From: an uncultured Bacteroides sp.
GTDB lineage: Bacteria > Bacteroidota > Bacteroidia > Bacteroidales > Bacteroidaceae
Direction: 5' to 3'
Assembly: GCA_949285075.1 (NCBI GenBank)
Contig: CASDXF010000030.1
Location: forward strand, 1-52,640
Length of the DNA: 52,640 nucleotides
Of the stretch, positions 128 to 47,571 are shown in pieces (the stretch's first letter is position 1; each line of letters starts with the position of its first letter). The translations under genes were made by a program, and so were the position numbers. The notes beneath the pieces are model-generated. The model had not been told where the DNA came from. It did not search any database and worked only from the letters and a program-made list of their open reading frames with translations.

Positions 128-1036
128 TGAGTCCCACATTAAAAGAAATGCCCAAAGATAAAAAAGAAAAACAAAAAAGCAAATGACCGTAACCGTTTCT
201 TTTTGCGGGATTTATATAATCATACTGGTAGTCACTATCATAACAGTAGTATAATAGGAGATAATTTTACAGAAACGCCTCAACTTTTCACACCTGAGAC
301 CTATGATGAACGATGACTGATGAATTTATGACACGCATGACATTAGAATACTCAAGGATGAAAAAAATTTCAAATCACCTTGATACAGCGATAGGTAAAA
401 ATGTTCTATTTTTAAGATTTTCCTCAAAAAAGAGCCTGACGAAAATTCTATTTTAGACGACCGGATAGAGTAAAAAGCACATGAAAATCGCATATTACTA
501 GAAAAAATCACCTTAATTACACCCTCTAAAAGATGCCGAAAAGGGAAATCTGGGACGAGACATAGCCCTTCTGTCCGTAAGCCGTAGCCCTATTTCTCGT
601 GAGACGTAGCTCTTCCGCTCACGAGCGAAAGCCCTTTTCTGCAAATCGGACGGTAAAATTACACCTTTTACCCTCTAATCGCTCACGATTTCCGCACATG
701 ACAAAAATATCCTTATCACACCATATATACCTATTCAGTTACAATATGAAAAGTATCATACACAAAGCAAGACAAAAGCATTTATACACCACCCAATTTG
801 ATGACATTCCGAATTTAGCCAACGCCTCTATATCGCATTCTTTTCATCCGCATCGTCCTTCGGTTGGAATTATCGCATTTTTAAGGCATCAGGATGTTCC
901 ATTTTTCAAATGGTCTGTTTTTAAGATTTCGCTTAACTCTTCCGACAAAAATTCGGGCAACGCCTTTTCCGTTCTTTTCTCATTATATAACGTCTCTCCA
1001 TAAACTGGACAACATCTAAACAAACACTGAGCTCCA
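128..1036. other. Non-coding stretch with 22-base array
   Basis: About 900 bases without a convincing gene. Open frames here (for example 599-1003 on the plus strand) have no recognisable product and cross the repeat array at 543-652. On the minus strand around 890-1000 a short coding-like stretch (ALPEFLSEELSEILKTDHL) is followed by stops and could be debris of a lost gene, but I cannot name it. Confidence 0.5.
543..652. repeat. 22-base periodic array A
   Basis: Five consecutive 22-base segments start at 543, 565, 587, 609 and 631. The middle three are clearest: they start GCCCTT, GCCCTA and GCTCTT and end CCGTA, ACGTA and CGAAA. Units three and four carry CTCGTGAG (596-603) and CTCACGAG. 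The outer two units are degenerate. The period matches the four other arrays in the window. Confidence 0.7.
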
Positions 1037-3793
1037 TTATTTAAGTATATATCCTCCCGCTTTCTCCGATACCACGCTCTGAGCCTCGTCAAGGCTTATC
1101 TCCCTTGTCGATCGCAGCGTGGCTAAGGGAGGGTCGAGACGGACCTCGGCCTCTACCCCCTCGATGCCGTTTAACGCACGCTCTACCCTACTGCGACAAT
1201 GGTCGCACATCATACCCTCCACCCGGAAGGTACTTATGATAGTCGCTGACGGGGCGGATGGGGAGAGTACCTCGGAAGGCTTATCCTCCGTATCGGGGCA
1301 TAGGCTAAGCGTATAGTTCCCGCCGCATGACGACACAGCGTGTTGAGCCTCGTCAAGGCTTATCTCCCTTGTCGACCGCAACGTGGCTAAGGGAGGGTCA
1401 AGACGGACTTCGGCCTCTACCCCCTCGATGCCGCTTAACGCCCGCTCTACCCTACTGCGGCAGTGCTCACACATCATACCCTCTACATGGAAGACGCTTA
1501 TTATAGTAGGCGAAGGGGCGGAGGGGGAGGTTGGCTCGGAAGGCTCCTCGGCGGGGGTCTCACTGAGCGCAAGGTCCCACCCCAATGACTTGCGACGCAG
1601 GCGGAGACTGTTGGAGACTACGCTCACGCTGCTGAAGGCCATCGCCGCCGCGCCTATCATGGGGTCTAAGGTAAGCCCGCAGACGGGGTAGAGAACGCCC
1701 GCCGCCACGGGGATGGCTATGACGTTGTACACGAAGGCCCAAAAGAGGTTTTGGCGGATGGTGCGGAGGGTGAGCCGGGAGAGGCGGATGGTCTCGGCCA
1801 CCTTCTCAAGGCCGCCGCCGAGGATGGTGACCATCGCCGTGTCTTTGGCCGCGTCGCTGCCCTCGCTCATCGCTACGCTGAGGTCGGCCACGGCGAGGGC
1901 GGCGCTATCGTTCACGCCGTCTCCTACCATCGCCACCTTATGGCCGAGGGCCTGCATCCGGCGCACGTACTCGGCTTTCCCGGCGGGCAGGGTGGCGGCC
2001 TGATAAGCGTCCACGCCCGCCTTGCGCGCCATGATAGCGGCCGCTCCCGCATTGTCTCCGGTCAGCATACAGGTCTTGACGCCGGAGCGGCGCAGCAGCT
2101 CCACGGCCCGGGCCGAGGTGGGGCGCATCTCGTCAGCCACGCTCAGCAGGGCGACGACGCGCTCTCCGCGGGACATCCATACGAGGGTGGAGCCGTCGCG
2201 CAGCCACTCGTCGGCCTTCGCCCGCAGCTCGGGGGAGACCGACACGCCACCCTCGGCCATCAGCTCCTCATTGCCGACGAGGTAGACACGGCCTTCCGAC
2301 ACGCCTCTCACGCCGCGCCCCGGCAAGTTCTCAAAGGCCTCCACGTCGGCCTCACGCCCTTCGCCGAGCCACCGCGTGACAGCCTCGGCCAACGGATGCT
2401 CCGACCTCCGCTCCAGTCCCCTCAGGACGGGGGCGTACGCTGCGGCGAAGTCCGGCGGATAGGCCTCGACTACCCGAGGCTTCCCCTTCGTCAGCGTCCC
2501 GGTCTTGTCGAAGACTACCGTGTCAATGTCCTTAGCGGTCTCAAGGGCGACAGCGTCTTTAATCAGTATCCCCCTTTCGGCTCCCTTGCCTATGCCCACT
2601 ATGATGGCGGTGGGGGTGGCGAGGCCGAGGGCGCAGGGGCAGGCGATGATGAGCACGGTGACCATAGCCATGAGGCCCCGGGTGAAGCCTTCGTCGGGCG
2701 ACAAGGCCCACCACGCGGCGAGCACCGTCAGAGCCACGGCCATGACAACCGGCACGAAGACGGCCGCTACCTTATCGACCAACCGCTGCACAGGTACCTT
2801 AGTGCCCTGCGCGTCACGCACCATCCGGATGACTCGGGACAACATCGTGTCGCCGCCCACCCTATCGGCCACGAAGCAGAAGCTGCCTCTCTGGTTCATC
2901 GAGCCCGCCAATACCGCGTCACCTTCCCGCTTGAAGGCGGGTATCGGCTCGCCCGTCATCATGCTCTCGTCTACGGACGAGCTGCCCGACTTTACCGTGC
3001 CGTCGGCGGCGACACGCTCTCCGGGGCGTACCCGCACCACGTCTCCTACCCTCATGCGTGAGGCGGGGACGGTGACCTCGCCCCGCTCGGTGACGATGGT
3101 CGCCGTTTCCGGACTGAGGCTCATCAGCTTCCTCACGGCGGTGGAAGTCTTTCTCTTGGCCCGCTCCTCCATGAGCTTGCCCAGAGAGATAAGCGCGACG
3201 ATGGCGCTGGCCGAGTCGAAGTAGACGTGCGGCGCTATGCCTCTCGCCGTCCAGAACTCAGGGAAGAGGAGGTTGAAGACGCTGAAGAGGTAGGCTATCC
3301 CGGTACTGACGGCCACGAGCGTATCCATATTGGCCGAGCCGTGCCTGAGCTGCCTCCACGCTCCGGCGAAGAAGCGGCGGCCCAGACCGAACACCACGAC
3401 GGTGGCGAGCAGCCACACGAGGTACTTGACGTATGGGATGTCCATGAGGAACATACTGGCCGCCATGACGGGGATGGCCATGAGCAGGGCGGCCCACGTC
3501 TGTCGCCTCATCGCCCGATACCGCTTGTCGCGCTCCTCCTCCACGAAGGCCTCGCCCTCTTCCCCGCCGTCGAGCATCAGGTCATACCCCGCCTCTCGGA
3601 CGGCCTCCCTAAGCCTCTCGGCCGGGCACGCCGCGGGGTCGTACACCACCCTCGCCGTGGCTGAGGCGAAGTTGACGCTCGCCTCGTACACTCCCTCCAA
3701 TCCGTTCAACGCCTTATCCACACGGGCCGCGCACGAGGCGCAGCTCATTCCCATGACGGGAAAAGTTTCTTCCGCTTTCTTATCCTTATCCAT
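1037..3793 (-). CDS. copA: Copper-translocating P1B-type ATPase with three HMA domains
   Basis: This inner-membrane pump exports Cu(I) at the cost of ATP. Of 918 residues, the N-terminal HMA domain has GMSCASC (Cys-18, Cys-21). The ion-site motif CPC is near residue 386, the phosphorylated Asp in DKTGTLT near 428, the SEHPLAE nucleotide-binding motif follows it, and GDGVNDSAA is near 624. Family members are usually 700-850 residues with all HMA domains at the N-terminus. Here two more HMA domains sit at the C-terminus (GMMCEHC near 774, GMMCDHC near 862), made by an 88-codon tandem duplication. The base composition is very GC-rich compared with the lpx and J-domain genes. An AraC-type regulator with its own HMA domain lies 108 bases upstream in the same direction, so copper-dependent control is likely. 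Substrate copper rather than silver is inferred from the CPC motif and family. Confidence 0.93.
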   Translation of the reverse strand: MDKDKKAEETFPVMGMSCASCAARVDKALNGLEGVYEASVNFASATARVVYDPAACPAERLREAVREAGYDLMLDGGEEGEAFVEEERDKRYRAMRRQTWAALLMAIPVMAASMFLMDIPYVKYLVWLLATVVVFGLGRRFFAGAWRQLRHGSANMDTLVAVSTGIAYLFSVFNLLFPEFWTARGIAPHVYFDSASAIVALISLGKLMEERAKRKTSTAVRKLMSLSPETATIVTERGEVTVPASRMRVGDVVRVRPGERVAADGTVKSGSSSVDESMMTGEPIPAFKREGDAVLAGSMNQRGSFCFVADRVGGDTMLSRVIRMVRDAQGTKVPVQRLVDKVAAVFVPVVMAVALTVLAAWWALSPDEGFTRGLMAMVTVLIIACPCALGLATPTAIIVGIGKGAERGILIKDAVALETAKDIDTVVFDKTGTLTKGKPRVVEAYPPDFAAAYAPVLRGLERRSEHPLAEAVTRWLGEGREADVEAFENLPGRGVRGVSEGRVYLVGNEELMAEGGVSVSPELRAKADEWLRDGSTLVWMSRGERVVALLSVADEMRPTSARAVELLRRSGVKTCMLTGDNAGAAAIMARKAGVDAYQAATLPAGKAEYVRRMQALGHKVAMVGDGVNDSAALAVADLSVAMSEGSDAAKDTAMVTILGGGLEKVAETIRLSRLTLRTIRQNLFWAFVYNVIAIPVAAGVLYPVCGLTLDPMIGAAAMAFSSVSVVSNSLRLRRKSLGWDLALSETPAEEPSEPTSPSAPSPTIISVFHVEGMMCEHCRSRVERALSGIEGVEAEVRLDPPLATLRSTREISLDEAQHAVSSCGGNYTLSLCPDTEDKPSEVLSPSAPSATIISTFRVEGMMCDHCRSRVERALNGIEGVEAEVRLDPPLATLRSTREISLDEAQSVVSEKAGGYILK
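1083..1560 (-). repeat. 264-base tandem duplication inside copA
   Basis: The stretch starting GCCTCGTCAAGGCTTATCTC at 1083 recurs at 1347, an offset of 264 bases or exactly 88 codons. The copies are nearly identical through the HMA domain and remain similar through the Ser/Pro-rich linker (SPSAPS). The reading frame is kept, so this is a recent in-frame domain duplication rather than damage. Confidence 0.9.
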
Positions 3794-3850
3794 ACACGTT
3801 AGTTTTCAGGTGAAGGGCGACCGCCCTCCGCCTTGTTCTACATTCCGGCG

Positions 3851-3858
3851 CAAAGATA
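3851..3858 (-). promoter_or_regulatory. copA -7 box without a clear -33 box
   Basis: On the minus strand the spacer between regulator and copA reads TATCTTTG, a full match to TAnnTTTG, about 58 bases before the copA start. No TTTG-like -33 box lies 19-20 bases upstream. A weak -33 would fit a promoter that needs an activator, and the AraC-type gene next door is the obvious candidate. The activator link is inference. Confidence 0.5.
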
Positions 3859-3901
3859 CGCCGCCGTCAGCCCTCGGGCCTTACATTATTCTGGTTAAAG
3901 T

Positions 3902-4477
3902 TTATATCTCGTCGAGCGGCTTCAGCCGAGGCTCCCTCAGCCGCCTGAACCGCGTGGGCGACAATCCCGTCATGGCCTTGAACTGGGCGCTCAGGTGCGC
4001 CGCGCTCGAATAGTGCAGCCTGTCGGCTATCTCTCCTACGGTCAGCTCCCCATAGGCGAGCAGCTCCTTCACCAGTTCCACCCGTTGCGCGACGTAGTAT
4101 TTCTCTATGTTCACCCCTTTCATCTCGGTGAAGAGCTTGCTCAGCGCGCTGTACTCCCTATGGCATTTCCCCTGCAAGTATTCGGACAGGTTCATCCTCT
4201 CCTGCAATCCGACCTCCCTGACGAACTCAATCACTCCCACACGAATCTGCTCCATGAGCCTCGTCCGCTTATCGTCAATCACCTCGAATCCGAACTCTTC
4301 GAGCCGTCGGCGTATCGCCTCCATCCGCTCCGGGCTCAGGCTTCCCTCCACCGTGACCACGCCCAGTTCCACCTTCAGCGGAGTGACCCCGTTCTCCTTG
4401 AATACGTCCGTCACCGTCATGACGCATCGCCGGCACACCATATTCTTAATATATACGCTGTTTGTTTCCATGAACAT
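3902..4477 (-). CDS. AraC-type regulator with N-terminal HMA-like metal-binding domain
   Basis: This 191-residue cytoplasmic protein starts with an HMA-like fold: VYIKNMVCRRCVMTV has a CxxC pair (Cys-15, Cys-18), and the following beta-alpha pattern ends in GFEVIDD near residue 70. The C-terminal half (about 115-185) is an AraC helix-turn-helix: LTVGEIADRLHYSSAAHLSAQF, then the signature KAMTGLSPTRFRRLR. The normal AraC ligand barrel is absent. The gene lies directly upstream of copA on the same strand, so the likely job is to sense Cu(I) or a related ion and activate copA. Translation could also start at Met-3 (first base 4471). The metal and its direct binding are inference. Confidence 0.85.
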   Translation of the reverse strand: MFMETNSVYIKNMVCRRCVMTVTDVFKENGVTPLKVELGVVTVEGSLSPERMEAIRRRLEEFGFEVIDDKRTRLMEQIRVGVIEFVREVGLQERMNLSEYLQGKCHREYSALSKLFTEMKGVNIEKYYVAQRVELVKELLAYGELTVGEIADRLHYSSAAHLSAQFKAMTGLSPTRFRRLREPRLKPLDEI

Positions 4478-4534
4478 ACATATTGAACCCTTCTAAAGAA
4501 ATTCACTCTAAAAAAGCACTTAGTAATAATATAA

Positions 4535-4578
4535 CAAAAAGAGGTTAACATGCCGTATTATTGCATCTTAACCTCTTA
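4535..4578 (-). terminator. Terminator of tRNA-Arg
   Basis: On the minus strand AAGAGGTTAA pairs with TTAACCTCTT around a 19-base loop (arms 4568-4577 and 4539-4548), followed by a run of T. It lies just past the tRNA 3' end and fits a rho-independent terminator. Confidence 0.75.
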
Positions 4579-4583
4579 TCTTG

Positions 4584-4657
<74 letters not shown>

Positions 4658-4672
4658 GACCTTATTTGGCCG

Positions 4673-4704
4673 CAAAGATAGCGCTTTCCCATAGACCGAC
4701 CAAG
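4673..4704 (-). promoter_or_regulatory. Promoter of tRNA-Arg
   Basis: The minus strand has CTTG, 20 bases, then TATCTTTG ending 15 bases before the tRNA. The -7 box is a full match to the Bacteroidetes consensus and the -33 box differs by one base. Confidence 0.65.
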
Positions 4705-4747
4705 AAAAGCAGCATTTTTTTATACCATAGACGTTTTTATCTAATAA

Positions 4748-6202
4748 TTATACGCCTATTGGCAACCCCAACAAATACCAAACGACGAACAGCACCGTCC
4801 ATCCTCCCAAAATAGCCAATGAGTATCGCCAAGTATATTTTAATAGGAATATATAAGTAATCCGTTTATCATATTGCCGCATATATGTCAGTGCTAAAGG
4901 CATATAAAATAAGAACGGAGTTATAGCGTTTGTAGAACTATCCCCTATTCGGAATGCGCATTGAACCATGTCAGGAGCTATACCTTTCTGATAAAATATA
5001 GGTATAAAAATAAATGATAACAAAGCCCATTTGGAAGTAGCCGAAACCATTATTAGATTAATAAAAGCAGTAAATATTATAAATGTAATTAGCGCAAACA
5101 AAGGAGAAAAATCAAAAGAAGAAAATATATTGGCTGACATTATAATTAAGCATTTATCTAAATGAGAATATTCAAAACAAGAAAACATCTGAGCTGCAAA
5201 AAAAGCAATTACAAAATATTCTCCTAATAATTGTATAGGACGAGTAAATCCCTCAGCTACATTATTATCTGAATGATAACGTCCTGATACAAAGCCATAG
5301 ACCATACCTGTAATGGCAGCCCCAAAGGAAAGAAGAAAAAGGATTCCCGCAATCAACGGAGAATGCATCAACCCTCCATTTACTCCACGTAAAATCCCAT
5401 ATGGAGATAAAGCAAACCATAAAATAATTCCCACATATATACACGCTGTCACTATAGCGAATATTACACCTCGTCGTTCCTTACGCGACAATGAACGATG
5501 TTTCTCATTCCCCATGTTCCCACTATATTCCCCTAATGCAGGAAACAAATAACGTTGACTTATCCCATAGACAATAGCGGTTATAATAATTGTCGATGCA
5601 CTCATAAAAAAGTAGTTACACAAAGGTTCAGTATTTCCCTGATAACCAGTCTGAATCAATGCCGCTTCTTGAGTGGTATGGGCCAACAAAGGATCCATTG
5701 TACTCAATATTATATTTGCGCTATATCCACACGCCACTGAAACATAAGCAATAACAATTCCCGCAACGGGGTGGAGACCGACCCACTGAAACAAAATCGC
5801 AGCAATCGGTAGTAAAATTATATATCCCCCGTCACCTATCGCATTTGATAGTAAACCAAGGACTATTACTAATATAATAATCTTTCGAGTATTCTTTCGT
5901 TCACCTATCACAATACGAATACAAGCCTCAATGAAGCCAGAATGTAATGCAATTCCCACACCAAACATGGCAATGACTACCATTCCTAAAGGAGCAAAGC
6001 CAGTAAAATTTGTTATGACATTTTTTAGCCACCAACGGACACCTTCAGGACTTAATAAACTTTGGACACGAATATCTTCCCCGGTTTGTGACAAAGTTAC
6101 TTTCAGTCCATAAATATCACATATCCATGACAAGAAGACAACTGCCAATGTCAACAAAAAGAACATCGTGGCAGGATGCAAAGTATGCCACCTACTCTTC
6201 AT
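4748..6202 (-). CDS. AbgT-family transporter
   Basis: A 484-residue inner-membrane protein with many hydrophobic segments. The AbgT family moves p-aminobenzoyl-glutamate or, in some members, exports sulfonamides. The family is recognised from the opening HPATMFFLLTLAVVFLSWI, the segment WWLKNVITNFTGFAPLGMVV near residue 60, GLLSNAIGDGGYIILLPIAA near 120, and a C-terminal segment RIGDSSTNAITPFLFYMPLA typical of the family. The start codon overlaps the end of the response regulator gene by 11 bases, so the two are translationally coupled and probably co-transcribed with the sensor kinase. That arrangement suggests the two-component system and the transporter serve one pathway. The actual substrate cannot be read from sequence. 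Confidence 0.88.
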   Translation of the reverse strand: MKSRWHTLHPATMFFLLTLAVVFLSWICDIYGLKVTLSQTGEDIRVQSLLSPEGVRWWLKNVITNFTGFAPLGMVVIAMFGVGIALHSGFIEACIRIVIGERKNTRKIIILVIVLGLLSNAIGDGGYIILLPIAAILFQWVGLHPVAGIVIAYVSVACGYSANIILSTMDPLLAHTTQEAALIQTGYQGNTEPLCNYFFMSASTIIITAIVYGISQRYLFPALGEYSGNMGNEKHRSLSRKERRGVIFAIVTACIYVGIILWFALSPYGILRGVNGGLMHSPLIAGILFLLSFGAAITGMVYGFVSGRYHSDNNVAEGFTRPIQLLGEYFVIAFFAAQMFSCFEYSHLDKCLIIMSANIFSSFDFSPLFALITFIIFTAFINLIMVSATSKWALLSFIFIPIFYQKGIAPDMVQCAFRIGDSSTNAITPFLFYMPLALTYMRQYDKRITYIFLLKYTWRYSLAILGGWTVLFVVWYLLGLPIGV

Positions 6203-6920
6203 CGGGTTCTAGATTATCCAAATCAAGTATTCGTAATTCCAATGCACGAACAACCAAACGAGTCGCATTTACTCCTACCCGTTCTCCACTCTGAAATAGA
6301 CGTCCTATCAGATCGTTTTGACGTTTCTCTAGGGATTTTACTCCAAACGGCATTTCTTTCAGGTTCGCAATCATTTCCTTTGTATACCCCAAAGCTAAAT
6401 GTCGCAGAAAACGTTCATCATATTCATCTATATCATAATTAATTATCGCTTCTTGTCGCTTTGTGTCATTAATTACTGATTTCTTAAAACGCTCTACTAT
6501 TTTTTCAAGAATAGGAAGATTAAACACAAATTTCTTACCATCCATTACCGCCTGTACGTCTGTTTTGGTTAATAGCTCTCCCGTTTTAAGAATAATTCCA
6601 TCCGCCCCCGCATCGAGTACATCTACCCACAACTTCTCATTCAAAATTTCCCCTGTAAAAATAAGTACTCGGACTCCTTTATAACGTTTAAATATATTTC
6701 GACAAATGTCAACTCCTACAGTAGTTGATCCTCCTAATCCTAAATCAAGCAAAACTAAATCGGGAAGCTGTATTTCCATTAATGTCCAAAACTCATTTTC
6801 TGTCATGGCGGTACCTATAACTTCCGCATTGGGAATCTCATGACGAAAAATTTCTTCCGTACCCTTTAACTCAAGCTTCACGTCCTCTACGATAATAACC
6901 TTAAATCTTTGTTCTTCCAT
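6192..6920 (-). CDS. Response regulator
   Basis: A 242-residue protein with an N-terminal receiver domain: acidic pair Glu-12/Asp-13, phospho-acceptor Asp-59 in LVLLDLGLGG, Thr-89 in LIFTGE and Lys-112 in IILKTGE. The C-terminal part (about 165-235) contains DERFLRHLALGYTKEMIANL and then KSLEKRQNDLIGRLF, a LuxR/NarL-like helix-turn-helix arrangement, so it probably binds DNA. It lies 26 bases after the sensor kinase gene and overlaps the AbgT transporter gene by 11 bases. It is the expected partner of that kinase. Its target promoters are unknown. Confidence 0.87.
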   Translation of the reverse strand: MEEQRFKVIIVEDVKLELKGTEEIFRHEIPNAEVIGTAMTENEFWTLMEIQLPDLVLLDLGLGGSTTVGVDICRNIFKRYKGVRVLIFTGEILNEKLWVDVLDAGADGIILKTGELLTKTDVQAVMDGKKFVFNLPILEKIVERFKKSVINDTKRQEAIINYDIDEYDERFLRHLALGYTKEMIANLKEMPFGVKSLEKRQNDLIGRLFQSGERVGVNATRLVVRALELRILDLDNLEPDEE

Positions 6921-6946
6921 TGTTTATCTATAATTATCAATATCGT

Positions 6947-9900
6947 TTATTTACAAGGTATTGTAAAATAAACCGTAAATCCTTCTTCAGCCTGTTCAGC
7001 ATCAATACGACATCCACGGCGTGCGGAAAATTCATCGTGTTCACGAATAATCTGTTTACAAATAAGATATTCCGTGCCATGAAGCACTCCTTTCTCCTCA
7101 GCAATCATATGCGCTAATTCAGGATAAAACAATTGTCGCAATTCTTCTTTACTCTTATTGCGTCTCGTATCAGTAAATAAAAAGCGAATATAATCACCAT
7201 CCTTAACCGCCTGCAAACGAAGCGCTCCGCTTTCTTTAAACATTAACGCTTCATCTATTAAAACTTCTAATAAAAAACATAGTAAGTTTTTATCACCTAT
7301 CACATTTTCCATTACTGTCTCTAACATTAATTCAATAGATATACCTCCAATTCCTTTGATTTTCTTTTGGAAATATTTATCTGCGGCATTAAAAAGCTCC
7401 CCGACCGATATTATGCTCCTTCGAAAAATCACTCCTTCTAATTGTCGAGAAGCGCAAGAACTGAGAATGGTAAATATACCTTTATAATATTCTATCAATT
7501 CAACAATAGTCTCTACATCTTCTCGCTCTTCGTTTTCCGATATTTGACTTGAATTTAATTTACCAACAATCTGCTTAATTCTATTGGGATAGTAGACAGT
7601 TTCATGCTTGATAGTAGAAAGACAATTATCAAGTACCATATTTTGCACATGCAATGAACTGTCTTCCCAAGAAGCACGACGAGCTTCCTCGTGCGCTGAA
7701 TCAATATCTCGAAATTTCGCCGCCAACTTTATTATTACATTAAATACAACGATAGCTACATAACGGGCAACCAACTCTAACAAAAGCAAATCTGTTTCCC
7801 GTTCCACTCCCTCTTTTTGTTCTATGTATAGTACACCGACACATTGGCTTTTTCCCTGCTGTTCTACAATCAAAGGAACAGCACGAGAATGTTGTATAGA
7901 AAAATCTTTTGCTTGTTCAAAACACTGCTTTACAATTTCAGGCATTCTTTCATTTGCATTCGACACATATTCTAATTTACGAGCACCCTCATTATAGACA
8001 GCAATTCCCATATCTTGAACCGTCAACAATTCATTAACATTTATAAAAGATTGATTTATAATATCTTTTGGAATTTCCTTTAATATATTCTCTTCACATT
8101 GAAGAGCTTCTACATTTTCCTGAGGATGTGAAGATATTGAAAATATCTTCTGATTTATCTCAAGAATCTGTTCTAAATCCAAACGGCTCTGCAAACGCTT
8201 CCGTAAATACAAAAAGTAGTATCCTATCAATAAAATCACCAACAGCATGATGCATAAAATAATTCCGACAGTCTTATTGGTATTCGAACGCTCTAACTGA
8301 CGACAATATACTTCCAATGTACGATCCTCTCCTTGCAATTTATATAAACTAGTAAATGCCCAATTATTATAATTATATTCCTCTAATCGTTTTAAAGCTA
8401 AGAAAGCAACAGCAGCCTCATTTCTTATATCCATAATAACATGATAATCCGAATCAAAATGCTCATTCCACCATAAAATCTCTGCAGGAATCTCCTTGTC
8501 CATCAACCTTAAATAGCGTTTTATGCGCATTGGATCCGCATATCTTCTATAATGTTCATTCAACGACATCATAGCTGAGTCAATATACTGTAAAGCTATC
8601 GTATATTGTTCATCTACATTAGCAAAATAAGCAGCATTTGCATAATCAGAGGCTACATCCAAGAATTTGTCATAAGAAGAATCGGAAACTACCACAACTG
8701 AATCATTCTTTTCCACCATATTTGAAGGCATAGCTTCATAAGAACATGAATTTATTCCAATAATAAAGAATAAATAGAAAGGTAGAAGTGACGATTTACG
8801 CATTCCCAAAGGAAGACGAAAATAGAAACGGCTTCCCTTACCAATTTTACTGTCTACATTGAATGAACACACACGGAACAATCCTCCTATCTTTTTGTAT
8901 TTTTCTATAATGCCTTTGCAATTCATTAAACCAAACCCACCACCTTTACTTCTTTTCAACCCTTCCGGATCTGCAGTCTCTTTCATGCCAATCGCATAAG
9001 CATCATAAACCTTTTCACCTATAATGCGATTCACATCCTCAGCAGAAATTCCCATTCCATTATCCTCGACAGAAATCTCGACATAATCCTTTGACTTCAC
9101 CGCATAAATCTTCACAACCCCTCCCGATGGAGTATACTTACGGGCATTATCCGCCAAAGTATTAATCATAAACAAGGTCAAGGCACGATCCGCTTTGACT
9201 AAAGCGTCTGTTGGAACAACTTCCAACTTTAGTTTTCTCATGTCAAAAGTCCTTCTTCCCTTTCCTAATAAATCAAACAGGTCATTCAAGCTAAAAATCT
9301 CAATATTCAAACTCAGTGTGCCTTGCCTCATTTTTATCCAAAGAGCAAGTATATCATTATACTCATTAATTTTAGAGACCAACTCATCAATATATTGGTA
9401 TTTTTCCCTTTTTATTGTTTCATCTTTAATATAACCTTTCTCTGTCAATTTGTGTACTTCGTTCAGAATACGATCTATATAAGGATGAATACCATTTACA
9501 ATAGACATACATGCCCTCTTTACTATATTTTGTCTTTTATTCTCCGCAATATGACGTTCATAAACATAGCGAAGTTTTTCTAACCGGGTTCGCTCGTCAC
9601 TTAACGTTTCTAATGCCCGTTCGTTATCTGACGCCCATTCAATATAGGGTTCCAACACACGCATTAAAGCCTTTTCATCTCTACCACAATGATAAGATGA
9701 ATTCCATACCGCTTTTCCATCCTCCTGTACCGTTAATGTAACTCTCCCCTTCCTGAACAAGCGGTCAACTCCGTCTTGAACCAATGGAAGATTCATCGGA
9801 ATAGATGAAGTAATATCACGACATAAGGAAAGAACCAACTGAAGTCTTTTCACATCAATCTGATTCTTCATGCTCGATCGTCTATTTAAGAACCACCAAA

Positions 9901-14474: not shown

Positions 14475-14646
14475 GGAGTAAACCAAAATAAGATAAAAGG
14501 CGGAACGCCGCAGGGATGCTACAGGCCATTGATAGCGAGCTTTATTCTTTTTCCAAAAAATCATACACCCCCCCTTTTTGAAGGCCTTCCACCCCTCCTC
14601 ATCAAGCGTCTTTGCAACCATCTGACTGACAAGAAGTTGTCGTTAA

Positions 14647-14756
14647 TCCCCTACGAGCACCTCGTTAGTCCCCCATGAGGGTCTCGTTAGTCCCCGACGA
14701 GCACCTCGTGTGTCCCCGACGAGGAAGCCGTGTGTCCCCGACGGAAAAACGGGGTG
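14647..14756. repeat. 22-base periodic array B (five units)
   Basis: The cleanest of the arrays: units start at 14647, 14669, 14691, 14713 and 14735, each beginning TCCCC and four of five ending in GTTAG or GTGTG. Units one and three contain the dyad ACGAG-CAC-CTCGT, unit two ATGAG-GGT-CTCGT and unit four ACGAG-GAA-GCCGT. Unit five is ACGG-AAAAA-CGGGGT. It sits between the dnaX promoter and the 3' end of the RibD-like gene. Confidence 0.85.
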
Positions 14757-25357: not shown

Positions 25358-25518
25358 CTTATTATCAACGCCTTATTTTCCGTTTTAAGAAACTGCCCTA
25401 TTTCTCGTGAGCCACTGCCCTATCTCTCGCGAGGCGTAGGGCTGTCCCTCGCGAGCCGCAGGGCAGTCTGACAAACGGGGAAAGAATTAATGTAAATTTC
25501 CCTGCTGCGGAAACGAAA
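25358..25518. repeat. Dispersed 160-base repeat, copy 1, containing 22-base array C
   Basis: Starts CTTATTATCAAC and ends GCGGAAACGAAA, like 37841-38000. Its core is 22-base units at 25373, 25395, 25417, 25439 and 25461. Units two to four carry CTCGTGAG, CTCGCGAG and CTCGCGAG. The last begins GGGCAGTCTGACAAACGG. The first unit is AT-rich. Confidence 0.85.
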
Positions 25519-37840: not shown

Positions 37841-38000
37841 CTTATTATCAACAACTTAATTCCATCCCGAGAAATAGCCCCATTTCTCGCGAGCCGCCGC
37901 CCTATTTCTCACGAGCCATAGGGCTGTCTTTCGCGAGCCACAGGGCAGGCTGACAAACGGAGAAGGTTTAACGTAAATCCTCCTCATTGCGGAAACGAAA
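37841..38000. repeat. Dispersed 160-base repeat, copy 2, containing 22-base array D
   Basis: Matches 25358-25518 across its length with one-base indels. The units start at 37855, 37877, 37899, 37921 and 37943. The central ones carry CTCGCGAG, CTCACGAG and TTCGCGAG. The last starts GGGCAGGCTGACAAACGG. Confidence 0.85.
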
Positions 38001-40822: not shown

Positions 40823-40833
40823 AGTATTGTACT

Positions 40834-42018
40834 ATGTTCAAAGATTATTATAAAATCCTTGGCATAACTCAACAAGCATCTACTCCGGAAATCAAGTCTG
40901 CTTATCGTGCAATGTCCATGCAATGGCATCCAGATAAGAATCCCGGGGTAGATGTGACTGCAATCATGCAAGATATAAATGAAGCCTATGCCATACTTAA
41001 GGATGAGGATAAACGTCGTAGGTATGATGAAGAATATGATAGATTTATCAAGCAATACCACGATGATTTGACTTTACATGAAGACAGAAAATGTAACCAT
41101 GAATCTGCCAATCAAAATCATTCGTCACGTTGGGTATATGACTATGATATTCAAGATGAAACCCTGAAAGAAGACATTAAAACAGCCAGACAATATGCAA
41201 AAGACCTCGTTGAAGAGTTCATAAAATCATTTAAGAATGCATCTAAAAACGCAGCAAAGGGGGCATGGTCTGGCGCAAAGGGTTATGTGTACGTTGCCAT
41301 AATTATGACATTGATTGGTATTGTCATTAAAACTTGTCATTCAGCAAATAATATTGCTTCATATTCAGAATTTTATGAACCAATTGACAGTTTCAATGCA
41401 CAAGTGGACGAAGAAATTGCAAAACTTCCTGTTCCTATCAAGCTTTTACCATCTTTTACAACACCTGAAAATTGGACTAAGTATGCAATAGGCAATAACG
41501 CTTTTTCGGTATCAGTTCCAAACACTGTAGAATTGCGTCATGAATACGATAGTTATACTCGTCAGTTGCAAGAATTAGGATTTGTATGTAATTCAGATAG
41601 AGTGGTATTCCAACAAAAAGGTCTCTCTCGTAAGAAAAAGGATGCCTATAACCATTATTGCAGGATTATTATTTTGCATACGATAGGAAATGCAGGCGAT
41701 TTCCCTCACTCTTATGAGGCAGAGTATATCGACTATGAAACAAAATCGTTTTTGAGAGATTTGGTTTTATCGGAATTGGGTCCAACATACAAGTTGCTAG
41801 ATGAGCCTGATTATGAGTGGATATGTATTGAAACTATGAATGCACTAGAAATCAAATACCGCAGAAGCGGAAGTGAAGGAAATACAACAGCATGTACTAT
41901 GTACTTGCTTTTCAATTATAACGAAATGGTAAAAATAGTTGTGTCTTATCGTGAACAAGAGAAAGATATATGGTTGCCAGATTTAAATAATGTAATTAGA
42001 ACTTTTAAATGGGATTGA
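40834..42018 (+). CDS. Membrane-anchored J-domain protein
   Basis: 394 residues. The N-terminal J-domain (DYYKILGITQQASTPEIKSAYR with the HPD motif in MQWHPDKNPG at 32-34) stimulates an Hsp70 (DnaK). There is no Gly/Phe region or zinc-finger domain, so it is not DnaJ proper. Near residue 155 is a membrane helix (YVYVAIIMTLIGIVIKTC), then a 220-residue domain I do not recognise, outside the membrane if the J-domain is inside. The gene is AT-rich relative to others here. It is followed by remnants of a third gene. Confidence 0.85.
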   Translation: MFKDYYKILGITQQASTPEIKSAYRAMSMQWHPDKNPGVDVTAIMQDINEAYAILKDEDKRRRYDEEYDRFIKQYHDDLTLHEDRKCNHESANQNHSSRWVYDYDIQDETLKEDIKTARQYAKDLVEEFIKSFKNASKNAAKGAWSGAKGYVYVAIIMTLIGIVIKTCHSANNIASYSEFYEPIDSFNAQVDEEIAKLPVPIKLLPSFTTPENWTKYAIGNNAFSVSVPNTVELRHEYDSYTRQLQELGFVCNSDRVVFQQKGLSRKKKDAYNHYCRIIILHTIGNAGDFPHSYEAEYIDYETKSFLRDLVLSELGPTYKLLDEPDYEWICIETMNALEIKYRRSGSEGNTTACTMYLLFNYNEMVKIVVSYREQEKDIWLPDLNNVIRTFKWD

Positions 42019-42021
42019 TAT

Positions 42022-42409
42022 ATGAAAAGAATAAAATAATATGTTTGATAGCTTTCTTTCTGTTTGTTACACATCAGTATAGATATTTATATCTATGAGA
42101 GAGGGGGACATGATGTCTATTTAGGAAAATAGAATGTAAACAAATATAATTCCAAATCTACATGGGATGAATCTGGAACGTATGAGGTGAATATAATTCA
42201 TGCAGTCCTTTTAATGCTCATGCGACCTATCCATCTGTATTGGTTGATTCAAAAAAGAAAATTTTATGGGTATTTCACGGTCAACAATATAAAAGTAATC
42301 TAGCGGTTTTTGACCTTGTAAACACATTATATGTGAATATTACAAATATATACGTGAAGATGTGAGCGATTGGTACAATAAAAATGCAAACTATATTTAT
42401 AAGGCTTGA
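42022..42409 (+). pseudogene. Broken gene for a small exported protein
   Basis: Begins four bases after the J-domain gene. The ATG at 42022 gives MKR, but a shift is needed to read NKIICLIAFFLFVTHQ, a signal-like segment. Further fragments in different frames are GGHDVYLGK, NVNKYNSKSTWDESGTYEV, FNAHATYPSVLVDSKKK, YGYFTVNNIK and EYYKYIREDVSDWYNK. At least four frame changes and stops separate them. Fragments of this form resemble small bacterial surface or periplasmic proteins with NKY/S-rich repeats, but I cannot name the family. Confidence 0.6.
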
Positions 42410-42455
42410 GAATGAGAAAATGGGAAGAAGCCAAACCTCTATTGTAATGCGCATA

Positions 42456-42594
42456 GGGAAATTGGAAGGTAAACAATAATAAAAACGCTCATTGTGTTTT
42501 TCCTTCGATAAATTGTGCTACCTTCACATATGAAGAGTTGTTTGACAGAGAAACATTGCAAATCACAGAAATCGAAACAATTTTCAAGTCATGA
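42456..42594 (+). pseudogene. Second gene fragment without a start
   Basis: An open stretch ending VFPSINCATFTYEELFDRET and LQITEIETIFKS with a stop at 42592, but no start codon and only 46 codons. It looks like a C-terminal relic. The rest of the 42410-42745 gap contains only the HAD -7 box. Confidence 0.4.
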
Positions 42595-42705
42595 TCTCAG
42601 TCTTTGAGAAAAGCTCTTTAGTGGCTTATTTCTAATCTATTCTTATTCATGTGATGGATTTTTCTAAAAAAGTGTTCCATACAAAACGGATTTAGCGAAA
42701 ACAAG

Positions 42706-42713
42706 TATCTTTG
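42706..42713 (+). promoter_or_regulatory. -7 box of the HAD gene
   Basis: TATCTTTG, a full match to TAnnTTTG, 33 bases before the HAD gene. A TTTG-like -33 box is not at the right distance. Confidence 0.5.
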
Positions 42714-42745
42714 CGCCACATATTCCGCACTTAACCAAGAAACGT

Positions 42746-43531
42746 ATGACGAAAGCCATTTTTTTTGATATTGACGGAACATTAGTCAGCTTCCGCACGC
42801 ACCATATACCCTCCTCTACGATAGAGGCTATTAAGGAGGCCCGCGGCAAAGGGGTCAAAATATTCATCGCTACGGGACGGCCTAAGATTCTGATAAATAA
42901 CCTGTCTGAACTGCAAGACCTTGACCTCATCGACGGTTATGTAACCATGAACGGAGCCTATTGTTTCGTTGGGGAGCAAGTGATTTATAAGCACGCTATT
43001 CGTCCGGAAGAGGTCAGGGCGATGGGTGAGTTCTGCGAGCGCAAGGGGGACGCATGCATCTTTGTCGAGGAGCACGCCATCTCCGTATGCCGGCCCAATG
43101 AATTAGTAAAGAAGATTTTCTACGATTTTCTCCACGTAGATGTCATTCCCACCGTCACACTGGACGAGGTGATAAACAATGAAATCATTCAGCTGACACC
43201 CTTCATCACCGAAGAGGAAGAAAGAGAAGTGCTGCCGTACATACCCAACTGCGAAATAGGCCGTTGGTATCCGGCGTTCGCCGACATTACCGCCAAAGGG
43301 GTGACCAAACAAGTGGGCATCGACGCGATTATCAAACACTTCGGTATAAAGTTGGAAGAGACGATGGCTTTCGGCGACGGTGGAAACGACATCAGTATGT
43401 TGCGCCACGCCGCTATCGGAGTAGCGATGGGGCAAGCTCGGGACGAAGTGAAAGCCGCGGTGAACTACGTGACAACCTCCGTCGACGAGGACGGTATCAG
43501 TCACGCGATGAAGCACTTTGGAATTATCTGA
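42746..43531 (+). CDS. Cof-type HAD-IIB phosphatase
   Basis: 261 residues. Motif I KAIFFDIDGTLVSF (nucleophile Asp-8, Asp-10), motif II FIATGRP, motif III Lys in FADITAKGVTKQVGI near 190, motif IV MAFGDGGNDISML near 213. The type IIB cap lies between motifs II and III. It dephosphorylates sugar phosphates or cofactors such as pyridoxal phosphate or FMN in the cytoplasm. The PIF1-like gene starts four bases after its stop. Confidence 0.93.
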   Translation: MTKAIFFDIDGTLVSFRTHHIPSSTIEAIKEARGKGVKIFIATGRPKILINNLSELQDLDLIDGYVTMNGAYCFVGEQVIYKHAIRPEEVRAMGEFCERKGDACIFVEEHAISVCRPNELVKKIFYDFLHVDVIPTVTLDEVINNEIIQLTPFITEEEEREVLPYIPNCEIGRWYPAFADITAKGVTKQVGIDAIIKHFGIKLEETMAFGDGGNDISMLRHAAIGVAMGQARDEVKAAVNYVTTSVDEDGISHAMKHFGII

Positions 43532-43534
43532 CAG

Positions 43535-45547
43535 ATGAACAATATCATAGACGCAGATAACTCCGCCTTTCAAGATGCGCTTAACCTGATTAAGTACACT
43601 CGCCAATCGGTATTCCTTACCGGAAAAGCGGGTACGGGGAAGTCTACCTTCCTGCGTTACGTCTGCGAGCATGTGAAAAAGAAGCATGTCGTACTCGCTC
43701 CTACCGGCATAGCGGCCATTAACGCGGGAGGGAGCACGATACACAGCTTCTTTAAACTACCTTTCCATCCGCTACCCCCCGACGACCCGAACCTGAGCCT
43801 GCAACGAGGACGCATCCATGACTTTTTCAAATACACTAAAGCCCATCGCAAGCTACTCGAACAGTTAGAGCTTATCATTATTGACGAGATCTCGATGGTG
43901 AGAGCCGACATAATAGATGCCATTGACCGCATCCTGCGTGTATATTCGCACAACTTACGGGAACCCTTCGGAGGGAAACAGTTGCTGTTAGTAGGCGACG
44001 TGTTCCAACTTGAACCCGTGGTAAAAGCTGACGAACGGGAAATCCTGAATCGCTTTTATCCCACCGCTTATTTCTTTTCCGCACGTGTTTTCTGTCAGAT
44101 AGACTTAATCTCCATCGAATTACAGAAAGTCTACCGGCAGACGGACTCGGTATTCATCGGCATTCTCGACCGTATCCGGAACAACGCGACAGGCGCTTCC
44201 GACTTACAACTGTTAAACATGCGTTACGGAGCTCAACCGGAGACTTCGGAAACGGACATGCACATCACGCTCGCTACTCGAAGAGATACGGTAGACGCCA
44301 TCAACGGAAAGAAACTCGCGGAACTCCCGGGAGAGGAAATCACCTTCGCAGGGACAATAGACGGAGACTTCCCAGAAGGGAGCCTGCCCACCTCGCAAGA
44401 ACTGGCATTAAAAGTCGGAGCGCAAGTCATCTTCATCAAAAACGATTTTGAGCGGCGATGGGTGAACGGAACCATCGGAGTCGTGTCCGGAATCGACGAG
44501 GAAGAAGAGACTATCTACATCGTTACAGATACCGGTAAAGAATACGACGTGAAACGGGAAACGTGGCGTAACATCCGCTACCGCTACAATGAAAAGACAA
44601 AAGAAATAGAAGAGGAAGTATTGGGAAGTTTCACGCAATACCCCATCCGCTTGGCATGGGCCATTACGATACACAAGAGTCAGGGGCTAACCTTTAGCCG
44701 GGTAGTCATAGACTTTACGGGTGGAGTGTTCGCCGGAGGACAGACTTATGTAGCGCTAAGCCGTTGCACCTCCCTCGAAGGAATCTATCTGAAGAAGCCC
44801 ATTACCCGAGCGGACATCTTTGTAAAACCGGAAATCGTAAATTTCGCTTCCCGGTTCAATAACCGTCAGGCTATAGACAAGGCAATGAAACAGGCGCAGG
44901 CCGACATTCAATACGCGGCAGCCGCTAAAGCCTTCGACAAGGGAAACATGGAGGAATGCTTAGAGCAGTTTTTCCTCGCCATCCATTCACGCTACGATAT
45001 TGAAAAGCCCGTTCCTCGCCGATTGATACGCCGGAAGCTCAATGCCATCAATACGCTACGGGAGCAGAACCGAAAACTCAGGGAACAAATGGCGACCCAA
45101 CAGAAACAGTTGCGCCGATACGCCCTCGAATATGTGCTGATGGGGAACGAATGTATTACACAAGCCCACGACGCACGAGCCGCAATAGCCAACTACGACA
45201 AGGCGCTCAACCTCGACCCCGACTGCATGGACGCTTGGATACGGAAAGGCATCACGCTATTCAACGAAGAAAAATATTTCGACGCGGAGAACTGCTTCAA
45301 TAAGGCCGTCCATCTCCGTCCTACCGACTTCAAGGCTATCTACAACCGGGGAAAGCTCCGCCTACAACTAGACAACACGGACGGCGCGCTCGCCGACTTG
45401 GATAAGGCTACCTCCCTAAAGCCTGAACACGCCGGAGCGCACAAGCTCTTTGGCGACGCCTTGCAGAAAGCGGGAAAAGAGGACGAGGCCGCTCTGCAAT
45501 GGCGAATAGCGGAAGAGCTGAAAAAAAGGAACTTAAACAAACGCTAA
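43535..45547 (+). CDS. PIF1-like superfamily 1 helicase with C-terminal TPRs
   Basis: 670 residues. The helicase core: VFLTGKAGTGKSTFLRYV (Walker A, 28-37), VVLAPTGIAAINAGGSTIHSFF (motif Ia), LIIIDEISMVRADIIDAID (Walker B near 113), LLLVGDVFQLEPVVK (motif III), and a late RecD/PIF1-type segment IRLAWAITIHKSQGLTF with FAGGQTYVALSRC near 400. After residue 450 is a helical linker, then three TPR-like units (about 535-660: AIANYDKALNLDPDCMDAW, AENCFNKAVHLRPTDFKAI, ALADLDKATSLKPEHAGAH). A helicase with TPRs is common in Bacteroidales. The role in DNA repair or replication fork handling is inferred. Confidence 0.9.
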   Translation: MNNIIDADNSAFQDALNLIKYTRQSVFLTGKAGTGKSTFLRYVCEHVKKKHVVLAPTGIAAINAGGSTIHSFFKLPFHPLPPDDPNLSLQRGRIHDFFKYTKAHRKLLEQLELIIIDEISMVRADIIDAIDRILRVYSHNLREPFGGKQLLLVGDVFQLEPVVKADEREILNRFYPTAYFFSARVFCQIDLISIELQKVYRQTDSVFIGILDRIRNNATGASDLQLLNMRYGAQPETSETDMHITLATRRDTVDAINGKKLAELPGEEITFAGTIDGDFPEGSLPTSQELALKVGAQVIFIKNDFERRWVNGTIGVVSGIDEEEETIYIVTDTGKEYDVKRETWRNIRYRYNEKTKEIEEEVLGSFTQYPIRLAWAITIHKSQGLTFSRVVIDFTGGVFAGGQTYVALSRCTSLEGIYLKKPITRADIFVKPEIVNFASRFNNRQAIDKAMKQAQADIQYAAAAKAFDKGNMEECLEQFFLAIHSRYDIEKPVPRRLIRRKLNAINTLREQNRKLREQMATQQKQLRRYALEYVLMGNECITQAHDARAAIANYDKALNLDPDCMDAWIRKGITLFNEEKYFDAENCFNKAVHLRPTDFKAIYNRGKLRLQLDNTDGALADLDKATSLKPEHAGAHKLFGDALQKAGKEDEAALQWRIAEELKKRNLNKR

Positions 45548-45550
45548 TCG

Positions 45551-45581
45551 TTTGTTTTTTATCCGTGAAAATGTACTTTTG
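45551..45581 (+). promoter_or_regulatory. Promoter of the S8 protease gene
   Basis: TTTG, 19 bases, TACTTTTG. Both boxes match consensus exactly. The -33 box is at the very end of the helicase gene. Confidence 0.8.
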
Positions 45582-45625
45582 CGGAAAGATATACACCTTC
45601 TTGGTTAATTATTTAGAAAGTAAAT

Positions 45626-47416
45626 ATGAAAAGACCTCTTTTTTTTCTCCTGATAACCGCAGTGGGACTATACGCCTGTACAGACAATGACGTTTCCTAC
45701 ACAATGATTGCAAACGACAACACCCAGTATGAGCTTTCCGAAGATGACATTATTAAAGGAAGAATGCGAATCAAGCTAAAAGAAGAGCCGGAACAAGCGG
45801 GAGTAAGAAGCGCCGATGGCAAAATAAGTACGGGTGTACGCTCTTTGGATGACATCGCTTCCGGACTGCGCATCACACGTATGGAGCGCACATTCCCCTA
45901 TACGGAAAAGTTTGAGGAACGCACTCGCAAAGAAGGCTTGCATTTGTGGTACGACGTATGGTTCTCGGAGGAGATCACCACTACCCGAGCGGTCGAGGAA
46001 GTCGAAGCTATAGAAGATATAGAAATAGCGTGCCCTGTACGTAAAATCAGTTCACGCTCGGTCTCTTTACCGTGGAACGACCCTTACCTCTCCTATCAAT
46101 GGAATTTCTCAAATCCCGGAACAGAAAACTGGCAAGCGGCGGAAGCGGACATACGGCTTTCTTCGGACACATGGGAAAAGTATAATGGAGACCCAAGCAT
46201 CATTGTCGCTATCGTAGACGAAGGTATCTATATGGAACATCCCGACTTACAGGCAAACATCTGGACTAACCCGGAAGAAATTGCGGATAACGGAATAGAC
46301 GACGACGGGAACGGATACGTTGACGATGTAAACGGATACAACTTCTATAGCGGCTCTCCCTCTATGGACGTTCCTTACGACCACGGAACGCATGTAGCGG
46401 GTATTATCGGAGCCGTCAACAATAACGGCGTAGGCGTATGCGGCATTGCCGGAGGAAACGGAGAACCGAATAGCGGAGTCAAGTTGATGTGTTGTCAGAT
46501 TATCGCATACGACAGCTACAACAACAAAGGCGCAGAAGCCATCAAATACGCAGCGGACAACGGAGCCGTAATCTGCCAGAATAGTTGGGGATACACCGGA
46601 GAAATAGACCCTGCCGACAAAGCCGCAATTGATTATTTCGTTAAATATGCCGGGTGCGACAATGAGGGCAACCAACTTCCTGACAGCCCGATGAAGGGAG
46701 GTATAGTTTTGTTTGCCACCAACAACCATAATACGTCAAGTGCCAGTGACGCTACTCCAGCCGATTATGAGAATGTAATAGGAGTAGCCGCTTTGAGGCC
46801 AGACTATCAAAAGGCTTCCTATTCCGATTACGGCGATTACATTGACATCAGCGCTCCGGGTGGAGAAAGACCGGCAAATATAATGGATGCGGAAGGAGCA
46901 CAAATTTACAGTACTGTAGAATACGGGGATTATGACTATCTGTTCGGAGCTTCTATGGCATGCCCTCACGTCTCCGGAGTGGCCGCTCTAATCATCGAAA
47001 AGTATGGGGTAGAGAAACCGGGATTTACCGCTGAACAGCTAAAGGAAATCTTACTTGGCACAGCCTATGCCATAGATGAGTATAATCCCCGATACGTAGG
47101 AATGCTAGGTAGCGGATGTGTAAATGCGTCAGCAGCGTTGAGTGACGATTCGCCCGTAGCAAACAGCCAATCATTTCTCATAAGGACAAATCCTGTAACT
47201 GACGGGACATTAAGATTTCGTGCCGGCTCGGCTTTGGCCGGAGACGCGACAATATCTATATACAATAGTATAGGAACTGTCGTTCTGCGCACGAACATCC
47301 GAACAAGTCAGTACATTGACAGCTCAATAGATATTAGTAAATTGTCAGCCGGATACTATACGTTAACATACGAGCATGACAGCAATACGATAAAAGAAAA
47401 ATTCATCAAGTATTAA
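45626..47416 (+). CDS. Subtilisin-like S8 lipoprotein protease with sorting-type C-terminus
   Basis: 596 residues. A lipoprotein signal (LFFLLITAVGLYACTDND, Cys-16) leads a pro-region (about 20-150) and an S8 catalytic domain: Asp near 198 (IVAIVDEGIYMEHPDLQ), His near 256 (DHGTHVAGIIGAVNN) and Ser near 443 (FGASMACPHVSGVAALI), with Asn in CQNSWGYTG. The final 80 residues (TISIYNSIGTVVLRTNI, IDISKLSAGYYTLTYEHD, KEKFIKY) are like a type IX secretion C-terminal domain of type A. The neighbour is a damaged PorV-like gene. Having both a lipid anchor and a sorting domain is unusual. Confidence 0.88.
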   Translation: MKRPLFFLLITAVGLYACTDNDVSYTMIANDNTQYELSEDDIIKGRMRIKLKEEPEQAGVRSADGKISTGVRSLDDIASGLRITRMERTFPYTEKFEERTRKEGLHLWYDVWFSEEITTTRAVEEVEAIEDIEIACPVRKISSRSVSLPWNDPYLSYQWNFSNPGTENWQAAEADIRLSSDTWEKYNGDPSIIVAIVDEGIYMEHPDLQANIWTNPEEIADNGIDDDGNGYVDDVNGYNFYSGSPSMDVPYDHGTHVAGIIGAVNNNGVGVCGIAGGNGEPNSGVKLMCCQIIAYDSYNNKGAEAIKYAADNGAVICQNSWGYTGEIDPADKAAIDYFVKYAGCDNEGNQLPDSPMKGGIVLFATNNHNTSSASDATPADYENVIGVAALRPDYQKASYSDYGDYIDISAPGGERPANIMDAEGAQIYSTVEYGDYDYLFGASMACPHVSGVAALIIEKYGVEKPGFTAEQLKEILLGTAYAIDEYNPRYVGMLGSGCVNASAALSDDSPVANSQSFLIRTNPVTDGTLRFRAGSALAGDATISIYNSIGTVVLRTNIRTSQYIDSSIDISKLSAGYYTLTYEHDSNTIKEKFIKY

Positions 47417-47483
47417 CAACTTAGCGAGAGGATAGGCATGAAGGTCAGTTTAAGTTTTTTCGCTTAACGGAATAACATTCTTT

Positions 47484-47571
47484 ATTCTTGTACAACAAGC
47501 TACAGACTCTTGTACATCAGTGTCCTTACTCATGTACAACAATCGAACAACTCTTGTACATGAATAAAAGC
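47484..47571. repeat. 22-base periodic array E (four units)
   Basis: Four units at 47484, 47506, 47528 and 47550. They start ATTCTTGTACAAC, ACTCTTGTACATC, ACTCATGTACAAC and ACTCTTGTACATG. The centre TTGTACAA or its one-base variants is palindromic. The sequence is unrelated to the other arrays but the period is the same. Confidence 0.85.

Follow-up and report, generated by a model that had tools for sequence, protein, structure and literature searches.

The window analysed here, i.e. the whole stretch of 52,640 bases that forms contig C30 of the genome of an uncultured Bacteroides sp. (G000; 3.19 Mb in 75 contigs, 86.5% complete), contains five intergenic arrays of contiguous 22-base units. 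These arrays had been described in an original prediction made from the sequence alone, and the present analysis confirms that they are real. We propose, with moderate confidence, that they are double-stranded DNA tracks for dimers of a putative sequence-specific binding protein, one dimer per 22-bp unit. Each unit would form one dyad, with two inverted half-sites about one helical turn apart, so that the dimers would sit side by side on one face of the DNA, every two turns. This proposal draws on the period itself, on dyads detected by a strict test in about half of the arrays outside the family called F1, on half-site conservation in the family GAAAC-N4-GTTTC (GAAAC), on whole-unit gain and loss in several orthologous arrays, on the dispersal of F1 in elements and on a changed unit at constant period in an element common to two species. 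A step of about two turns, together with dyads, constrained half-sites and free spacers, is the pattern expected of an array of dimer sites. Throughout, L followed by a number denotes a sequence locus or stretch, and G followed by a number a genome.

In a sliding 66-base autocorrelation test with a threshold of at least 38 matches at a given lag, lag 22 reached the threshold at exactly five places in the window, all of which are the arrays originally reported, with peaks of 38 (A), 52 (B), 46 (C), 45 (D) and 43 (E) matches per 66. With independent bases, 0.0014 occurrences of 38/66 would be expected in 52,640 positions. Lag 44 reached the threshold at two overlapping places, and elsewhere in the window lag 54 did so at two places and lag 60 at one. 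Tandem Repeats Finder missed D and called period 22 at the other four arrays. The features are as follows:

Array A, 543..652, + strand: family F1 (CTC-RY-GAG), with degenerate ends, inside an element of ~510-540 bp.
Element holding array A, 402..928, + strand: dispersed and non-coding, with direct repeats of TGTTCYRTTTTTMAGATT at its ends, the right repeat at 911-928.
Array B, 14647..14756, + strand: family TCCCCGACGAG-N3-CTCGTGTG.
Array C, 25373..25482, + strand: family F1, with flanks CTTATTATCAACG ... TGACAAACGG.
Array D, 37855..37964, + strand: family F1, with flanks of the kind seen in array C.
Array E, 47484..47571, + strand: family TTGTACAA, with lag 44 high too.

Identity between neighbouring units, out of 22, is 6, 15, 11 and 9 in A, 17, 15, 18 and 16 in B, 9, 16, 16 and 11 in C, 7, 17, 15 and 10 in D, and 14, 13 and 15 in E. 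Four or five units had been assigned to each array; a core of three to five units is solid, with weak outer units in A, C and D. The small dyads that had been named are present, although E is the only array to pass a strict test for dyads of 8 pairs at p≤0.01 (p values for A to E: 0.460, 0.357, 0.177, 0.120 and 0.003). The F1 and B dyads are short, and the test is insensitive for F1. The motif had furthermore been said to differ by locus at a kept period. The period is indeed kept, but A, C and D belong to one dispersed family, with B and E belonging to others, and the window therefore holds three unit families, not five. TGTAC arrays resembling array E by eye occur in L039, L044, L049 and L050. 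Some short open reading frames (ORFs) called by a crude ORF finder cross the window arrays. Lag 44 is often almost equal to lag 22, as at 47484-47571 and 14640-14743 in the window and in L419, L428, L432, L434 and L435, and adjacent units seem to alternate between two variants where lag 44 is strong.

The period is abundant in the genome at large. In a sample of 450,397 bp, made up of the window and 20 further stretches, there are 49 arrays of period 22 and four of period 23, i.e. 53 arrays in 450 kb, while the remaining periods between 10 and 66 give 0-4 arrays each, except for the harmonic 44 (21 arrays); none was found in this sample at periods 19-21 and 25-29. A third-order Markov control gave no arrays for periods 18-26. 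The F1 unit, in which CTC-RY-GAG, three bases, TAG-SS-CTA and three bases follow one another, has 660 matches genome-wide at ≤3 mismatches, compared to 23 for the reversed pattern, and the sample contains 36 F1 arrays in which two or more units are clear. At one mismatch it has 262 matches in its own genome; among 59 other genomes of the genus, a single one has a match, just one and thus the same number as in its control, and in 16 named kin genomes at two mismatches only the control level was found. The unit of family B has 21 matches genome-wide versus five in the control, and more palindromes unlike F1 occur at period 22 or 23 in the sample. Arrays of period 23, each with its own palindrome and some of them longer than the 22-bp ones, lie at L041:1111-1451 and 9631-9899, L043:14662, L048:123 and L366:5588. 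Synteny with kin is broken near arrays C and D, and the nearest relative, G110 (81% identical at lpxD-lpxC), is too diverged for a comparison of empty F1 sites.

Period 22 extends beyond this genome. The LpxC/FabZ kin of the present genome point to the genus Bacteroides, the nearest among the 80 LpxC-anchored loci kept being B. bouchesdurhonensis at 94% amino-acid identity. In these 80 loci (1,358,874 bp), 19 arrays have period 22 and one has period 23, with none at 19, 20 or 25. Other common periods in these loci are 18 (27 arrays), 21 (18) and 54 (68), and also 14 (9) and 24 (8); many arrays with a period that is a multiple of three should be coding repeats, and one of period 21 (L128:5336) looks non-coding. 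The eight most distant loci (123,421 bp), taken as outside Bacteroidales by title with Draconibacterium borderline, hold none of the 19 period-22 arrays. Five other Bacteroides (400,000 bp) gave 10 arrays of period 22 and four of period 21, and G110 (400 kb) gave 19 of period 22, mostly built of a G110 unit containing AACCTTT, and six of period 23. One period-22 array was found in 262,847 bp from other families or classes of Bacteroidota, which represent 14 of the 20 stretches requested, and in E. coli K-12 (150 kb) the ten periods tested gave no array. The Bacteroidales samples show period 22 again, with other palindromes, and the samples outside show it rarely or not at all. Among non-F1 arrays of period 22 or 23, 22/43 passed a permutation dyad test at p≤0.01 (own genome 7/13, genus 6/10, kin 9/20), and among F1 arrays 2/40 did. 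A three-unit 22-base repeat of GGTGGCTGAGGTTCTCGAATTA, with no clear dyad by eye, lies at L330:11789-11904 in a member of the Bacteroidota from another family.

The GAAAC family allows individual positions of the unit to be compared between orthologous arrays. Of 129 Bacteroides genomes, 42 carry GAAACTNNAGTTTC spaced at 22 bp, and control matches appear in three (6, 7 and 1 per strand). Among 60 genomes of other Bacteroidota, none carries it. In 80 fetched arrays, 291 of 328 steps measure 22 bp, 15 measure 21, 13 measure 23 and nine are double. Information per position, compiled for eight genomes, is on average highest in GAAAC and GTTTC, the exceptions being single half-site positions down to 0.8 bit and two spacer bases of G034 that reach 1.7. 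In 19 pairwise alignments of orthologous arrays, the near group shows changes at 36/616 half-site (5.8%), 56/248 centre (22.6%), 100/395 spacer (25.3%) and 519/3419 flank positions (15.2%), and the far group at 38/315 (12.1%), 40/125 (32.0%), 105/219 (47.9%) and 670/1987 (33.7%), respectively (Fisher p for half-site versus centre plus spacer 9e-21 near and 2e-18 far). Gaps inside the array in four orthologous alignments measure 22 bp three times and 66 bp once; a gap of 22 or 66 bp is found in 5/19 alignments, with other gap lengths (1-79 bp), in or near the array, being equally common.

These data bear on a purely mutational origin, in which an enzyme of replication or repair dictates a step of 22-23 bases for palindrome-driven slippage or template switching, with no selection on binding. 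Such an origin would account for the gain and loss of whole units, for a freshly homogenised array copy (L393) and for one period shared by unlike sequences. It predicts equal divergence across the unit, however, whereas the half-sites change 2.6-4 times more slowly than the centre or spacer, and it sits poorly with the single array in other Bacteroidota (263 kb) and the lack of any in E. coli (150 kb). We consider it improbable.

The original prediction had also offered an RNA made of small hairpins, which as a transcript could act as a 3' end stabiliser, a terminator or a small RNA (sRNA). Such hairpins with 5-bp stems and 4-base loops are possible in the GAAAC family, most arrays of which are found downstream of genes. 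When codirectional arrays are read on the transcribed strand, however, 25 changes preserve pairing as G.U and 23 abolish it (p 0.89), or 33 versus 26 when the rarer T.G and C.A cells are added, so that a G.U over A.C bias is not clear. Among 2,040 pair cells, 229 changes are one-sided, one is two-sided with pairing kept and three are two-sided without. Slow half-sites without a pairing signal indicate that the word of the half-site is kept and not its pairing. Furthermore, dyads such as TTGTACAA leave no loop, F1 arrays are oriented with codirectional genes in 11 cases and against them in 10, and no Rfam match was found in the arrays or element copies examined. The GAAAC pairing counts, the F1 orientation and Rfam all speak against the RNA reading, which is very unlikely, and the constraint on the GAAAC half-sites would instead fit dimeric DNA binding every two helical turns. 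FopS sRNAs, considered as array RNAs, were rejected: they are of ~65-70 nt with a terminator, and the words 'repeats' and 'tandem' are absent from the text that describes them (PMC11697453).

The multimer on one DNA face, likewise suggested from the outset, gains from this constraint, which points to a dimeric binder every two turns. Several points weigh against it. The binder is a putative protein whose binding we infer, and the conservation result covers GAAAC only, not F1, B or E. The orthologous pairs were picked because both loci carried fetched arrays, and a unit was counted only with at least 8/10 half-site bases matched, which limits visible change. L282, L284, L285 and their partners were reused or are near-identical, so that the counts are not independent and the p values are optimistic. 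The 8-pair dyad test at p≤0.01 was failed by 21/43 non-F1 and 38/40 F1 arrays. Gene context adds to these points: F1 arrays do not clearly avoid gaps between divergent genes (5/31 or 9/35 placed there, depending on the treatment of short ORFs), whereas GAAAC arrays do, and no single genomic role is therefore indicated. With genes taken from the crude ORF finder, 48 of 77 placed GAAAC arrays lie in codirectional, 20 in convergent and nine in divergent gaps, compared to 56, 27 and 48 of 131 other gaps (9/77 vs 48/131 divergent, p 9e-5). The 34 other non-F1 arrays include three in divergent gaps, versus about a quarter of gaps (p 0.025).

Array A lies in an element with copies throughout the genome. 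Its leader pattern TGTTCTRTTTTTAAGATTTTCC has 91 matches at ≤3 mismatches in the own genome and 10 in G110, with both left and right element ends counted, and none in the control. The distance between the end repeats is 502-541 bp in 19 own copies and 516-522 bp in four G110 copies. Within the 450-kb sample, the right repeat is present in 9/10 leader copies, and a period-22 signal of 32-47 of 66 follows the leader in 10/10. When periods 20-24 are compared in the 20 own leader loci with the best match, 22 comes first in 19 and shares first place in the remaining one; CTC-RY-GAG occurs in 17 of these loci. The ten G110 matches comprise one right end of another copy (L396), one leader without an array (L394) and eight elements with arrays, for which period 22 is best in seven and tied in one. 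The unit of these G110 elements has arms GTCAGC or GTTGGG around TAACCTTT; AACCTTT occurs at least three times in 8/8 elements and CTC-RY-GAG in 0/8. The F1 and G110 words are largely different, yet they are not wholly unrelated, with the F1 arm GAGCCG occurring in 4/61 typed G110 units and GTCAGC at the ends of F1 arrays. The G110 arms around the core are unlike in 33/49 typed pairs, which fits an independent choice of arms and not hairpin pairing.

Genus-wide, the leader is found at ≤2 mismatches in 28/157 genomes, with two control matches, and 9/28 leader loci from other genomes have a period-22 array of at least 38 matches within 420 bp, where ~1% is expected. A second leader motif was tested in 13 of these 28 loci. 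L414, L420 and L429 lack it and all lie before the same gene, and may therefore be unrelated. L413, L419, L428, L432, L434 and L435 have it together with arrays of at least three further words, sometimes mixed inside one array (by eye). It is also present in L423, where the period signal is barely above shuffled sequence, and in L409, L412 and L415, where it is not above it. In other genomes, the similarity to the leader extends over 37-97 bases, the 22 matched ones among them (E 2e-7 to 2e-4), and over so short a stretch it makes homology likely, not proven. If homologous, these loci would represent one kind of element carrying about five words at one period. The leader regions of L412, L415, L423, L432 and L434 contain GCATAAATTAATGCA- and GCAAGAATATGC-like words resembling an operator. 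A cobalamin riboswitch (L413:1621-1856, Rfam E 1.7e-17) lies just outside a leader element in G066, and no Rfam model of a structured RNA falls in an array or element copy examined.

Dispersed sites make a selfish element with its own track-binding enzyme the main rival to the dimer tracks. Small non-autonomous elements would then be mobilised by a transposase or recombinase that binds the units, the arrays having no host function and 22 bp being the footprint of the enzyme. F1 indeed lies in dispersed elements (flanks resemble those of other copies on the right in 24/36 and on the left in 22/36 arrays), the element holding array A has terminal direct repeats and copy number differs strongly between species. 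This view is at odds with the conserved half-sites of orthologous GAAAC arrays that stayed put and with the several unlike units within one genome. A Y1 transposase is dispensable, with no Y1 match in G001, G009 and G062 despite their GAAAC arrays, other transposase families lying outside the search. On balance a purely selfish nature seems rather unlikely. In a related proposal, the units are crossover sites of a serine-type recombinase, with half-sites around a 2-bp centre and units gained or lost by exchange. The whole-unit indels agree with this, as does the frequent RY dinucleotide at the dyad centre (90/104 F1 and 84/122 G110 positions) with varying arms, but the GAAAC centre has four bases with other dinucleotides (by eye), and 22 bp is tight for recombinase sites in tandem. 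We regard it as highly improbable. As for carriage, one GAAAC array lies on a viral-listed IMG/VR contig (L231:11435), possibly in host flank, and four plasmid-labelled B. finegoldii records match 26-42% of one array query at 60-80% identity.

The original prediction knew of no described class with this pattern, which overstates the case. BrickBuilt, a miniature inverted-repeat transposable element (MITE)/minisatellite of Porphyromonas gingivalis, consists of 1 to 22.8 contiguous, imperfect, intergenic units of 23 nt, is dispersed with a leader and tail in 19 copies per genome and has short inverted IS5-like ends, which also lend weight to the selfish reading (Klein et al. 2015, PMC4596501). 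It has been reported as one family, from P. gingivalis and P. gulae, bidirectional promoter activity is a further trait of it, and its authors mention that 22- and 23-nt repeats were noted earlier in strain W83 (PMC4596501). BrickBuilt is the closest described case, and the arrays are probably the same kind of thing: both are found in the same order, intergenic and dispersed as contiguous imperfect units, and the F1 elements likewise have a leader and tail common to dispersed copies. The arrays are not BrickBuilt members by unit, period or ends. The 23-nt unit contrasts with 49 arrays at 22 versus four at 23 and with 22 in all five window arrays, the window units differ by eye from the consensus AGAYCATARTATCCTCTCRTRTG, the element of array A ends in direct repeats instead of the IS5-like terminal inverted repeats GAGACCTTTGCA, and 19 copies per genome compare with 660 F1 unit matches. 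As we read it, the degenerate consensus is compatible with a TCTCATATGAGA dyad that straddles the boundary between units. The portion of the BrickBuilt text at hand states neither unlike units at a shared Bacteroidales period nor a half-site test. Besides BrickBuilt and PMC5771137, nothing on 22-bp arrays in Bacteroidales was found in the open PubMed Central literature, subscription papers being outside its scope.

Within the dimer-track reading, binding would be cooperative and dependent on the 22-bp step, word and binder would change together between lineages, and the other families would work like GAAAC. The likely role would be local nucleoprotein assembly in non-coding DNA, for insulation, for supercoil or domain control or for control of the carrier element. 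HU-family paralogs as putative binders are an idea only. The original suggestion of a mechanism that reads spacing agrees with a period kept over changing motifs, also within the element common to the own genome and its nearest relative. More tentatively, there may be a general Bacteroidales DNA-spacing code, in which lineage-specific binders use 22-bp dyad tracks (23 in some) and one mobile non-coding element has acquired different words in different species; the spacing would be fixed by protein-protein contact, while word and binder would turn over together. If a protein reads the tracks, an abundant gut lineage has an undescribed nucleoid or regulatory system, locally dense as in the 450 kb sampled here with their 53 arrays, with a changing word and a kept spacing, which would provide a frame for BrickBuilt too and raises the testable questions of what binds and how the word of a binder changes across many sites at once.

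Other known systems share single traits with the arrays. Iterons and tandem operators, such as R6K-type iterons and ArgR boxes, have sites about two helical turns apart on one DNA face, but are regulatory sites of one known protein, whereas here unlike motifs occur dispersed at the same spacing. The units are contiguous and imperfect, without the spacers of a CRISPR-like array. REP/BIME sequences with RAYT (Y1) transposases are short palindromic intergenic repeats of genome-specific sequence, as are the arrays, but REPs form imperfect hairpins and lack a fixed period of 22 bp, and conserved hairpin pairing was not found in GAAAC, the family analysed for it. RAYT/REP was rejected as an explanation, since array-rich genomes without a Y1 match exist (G001, G009 and G062 above), even though the one Y1 gene of the own genome sits between two arrays. 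This gene, the only Y1 (RAYT-like) transposase match there (G000:C4:12029-12376; L067; L048:11897-12475), lies between F1 and CTGTAC arrays, amid hairpin repeats of the form GGACGG...CCGTCC, which resemble REP elements of its own. Four other Bacteroides genomes have arrays of period 20 close to Y1 transposase genes (L071:1212, L072:1929, L074:1283 and L075:2068).

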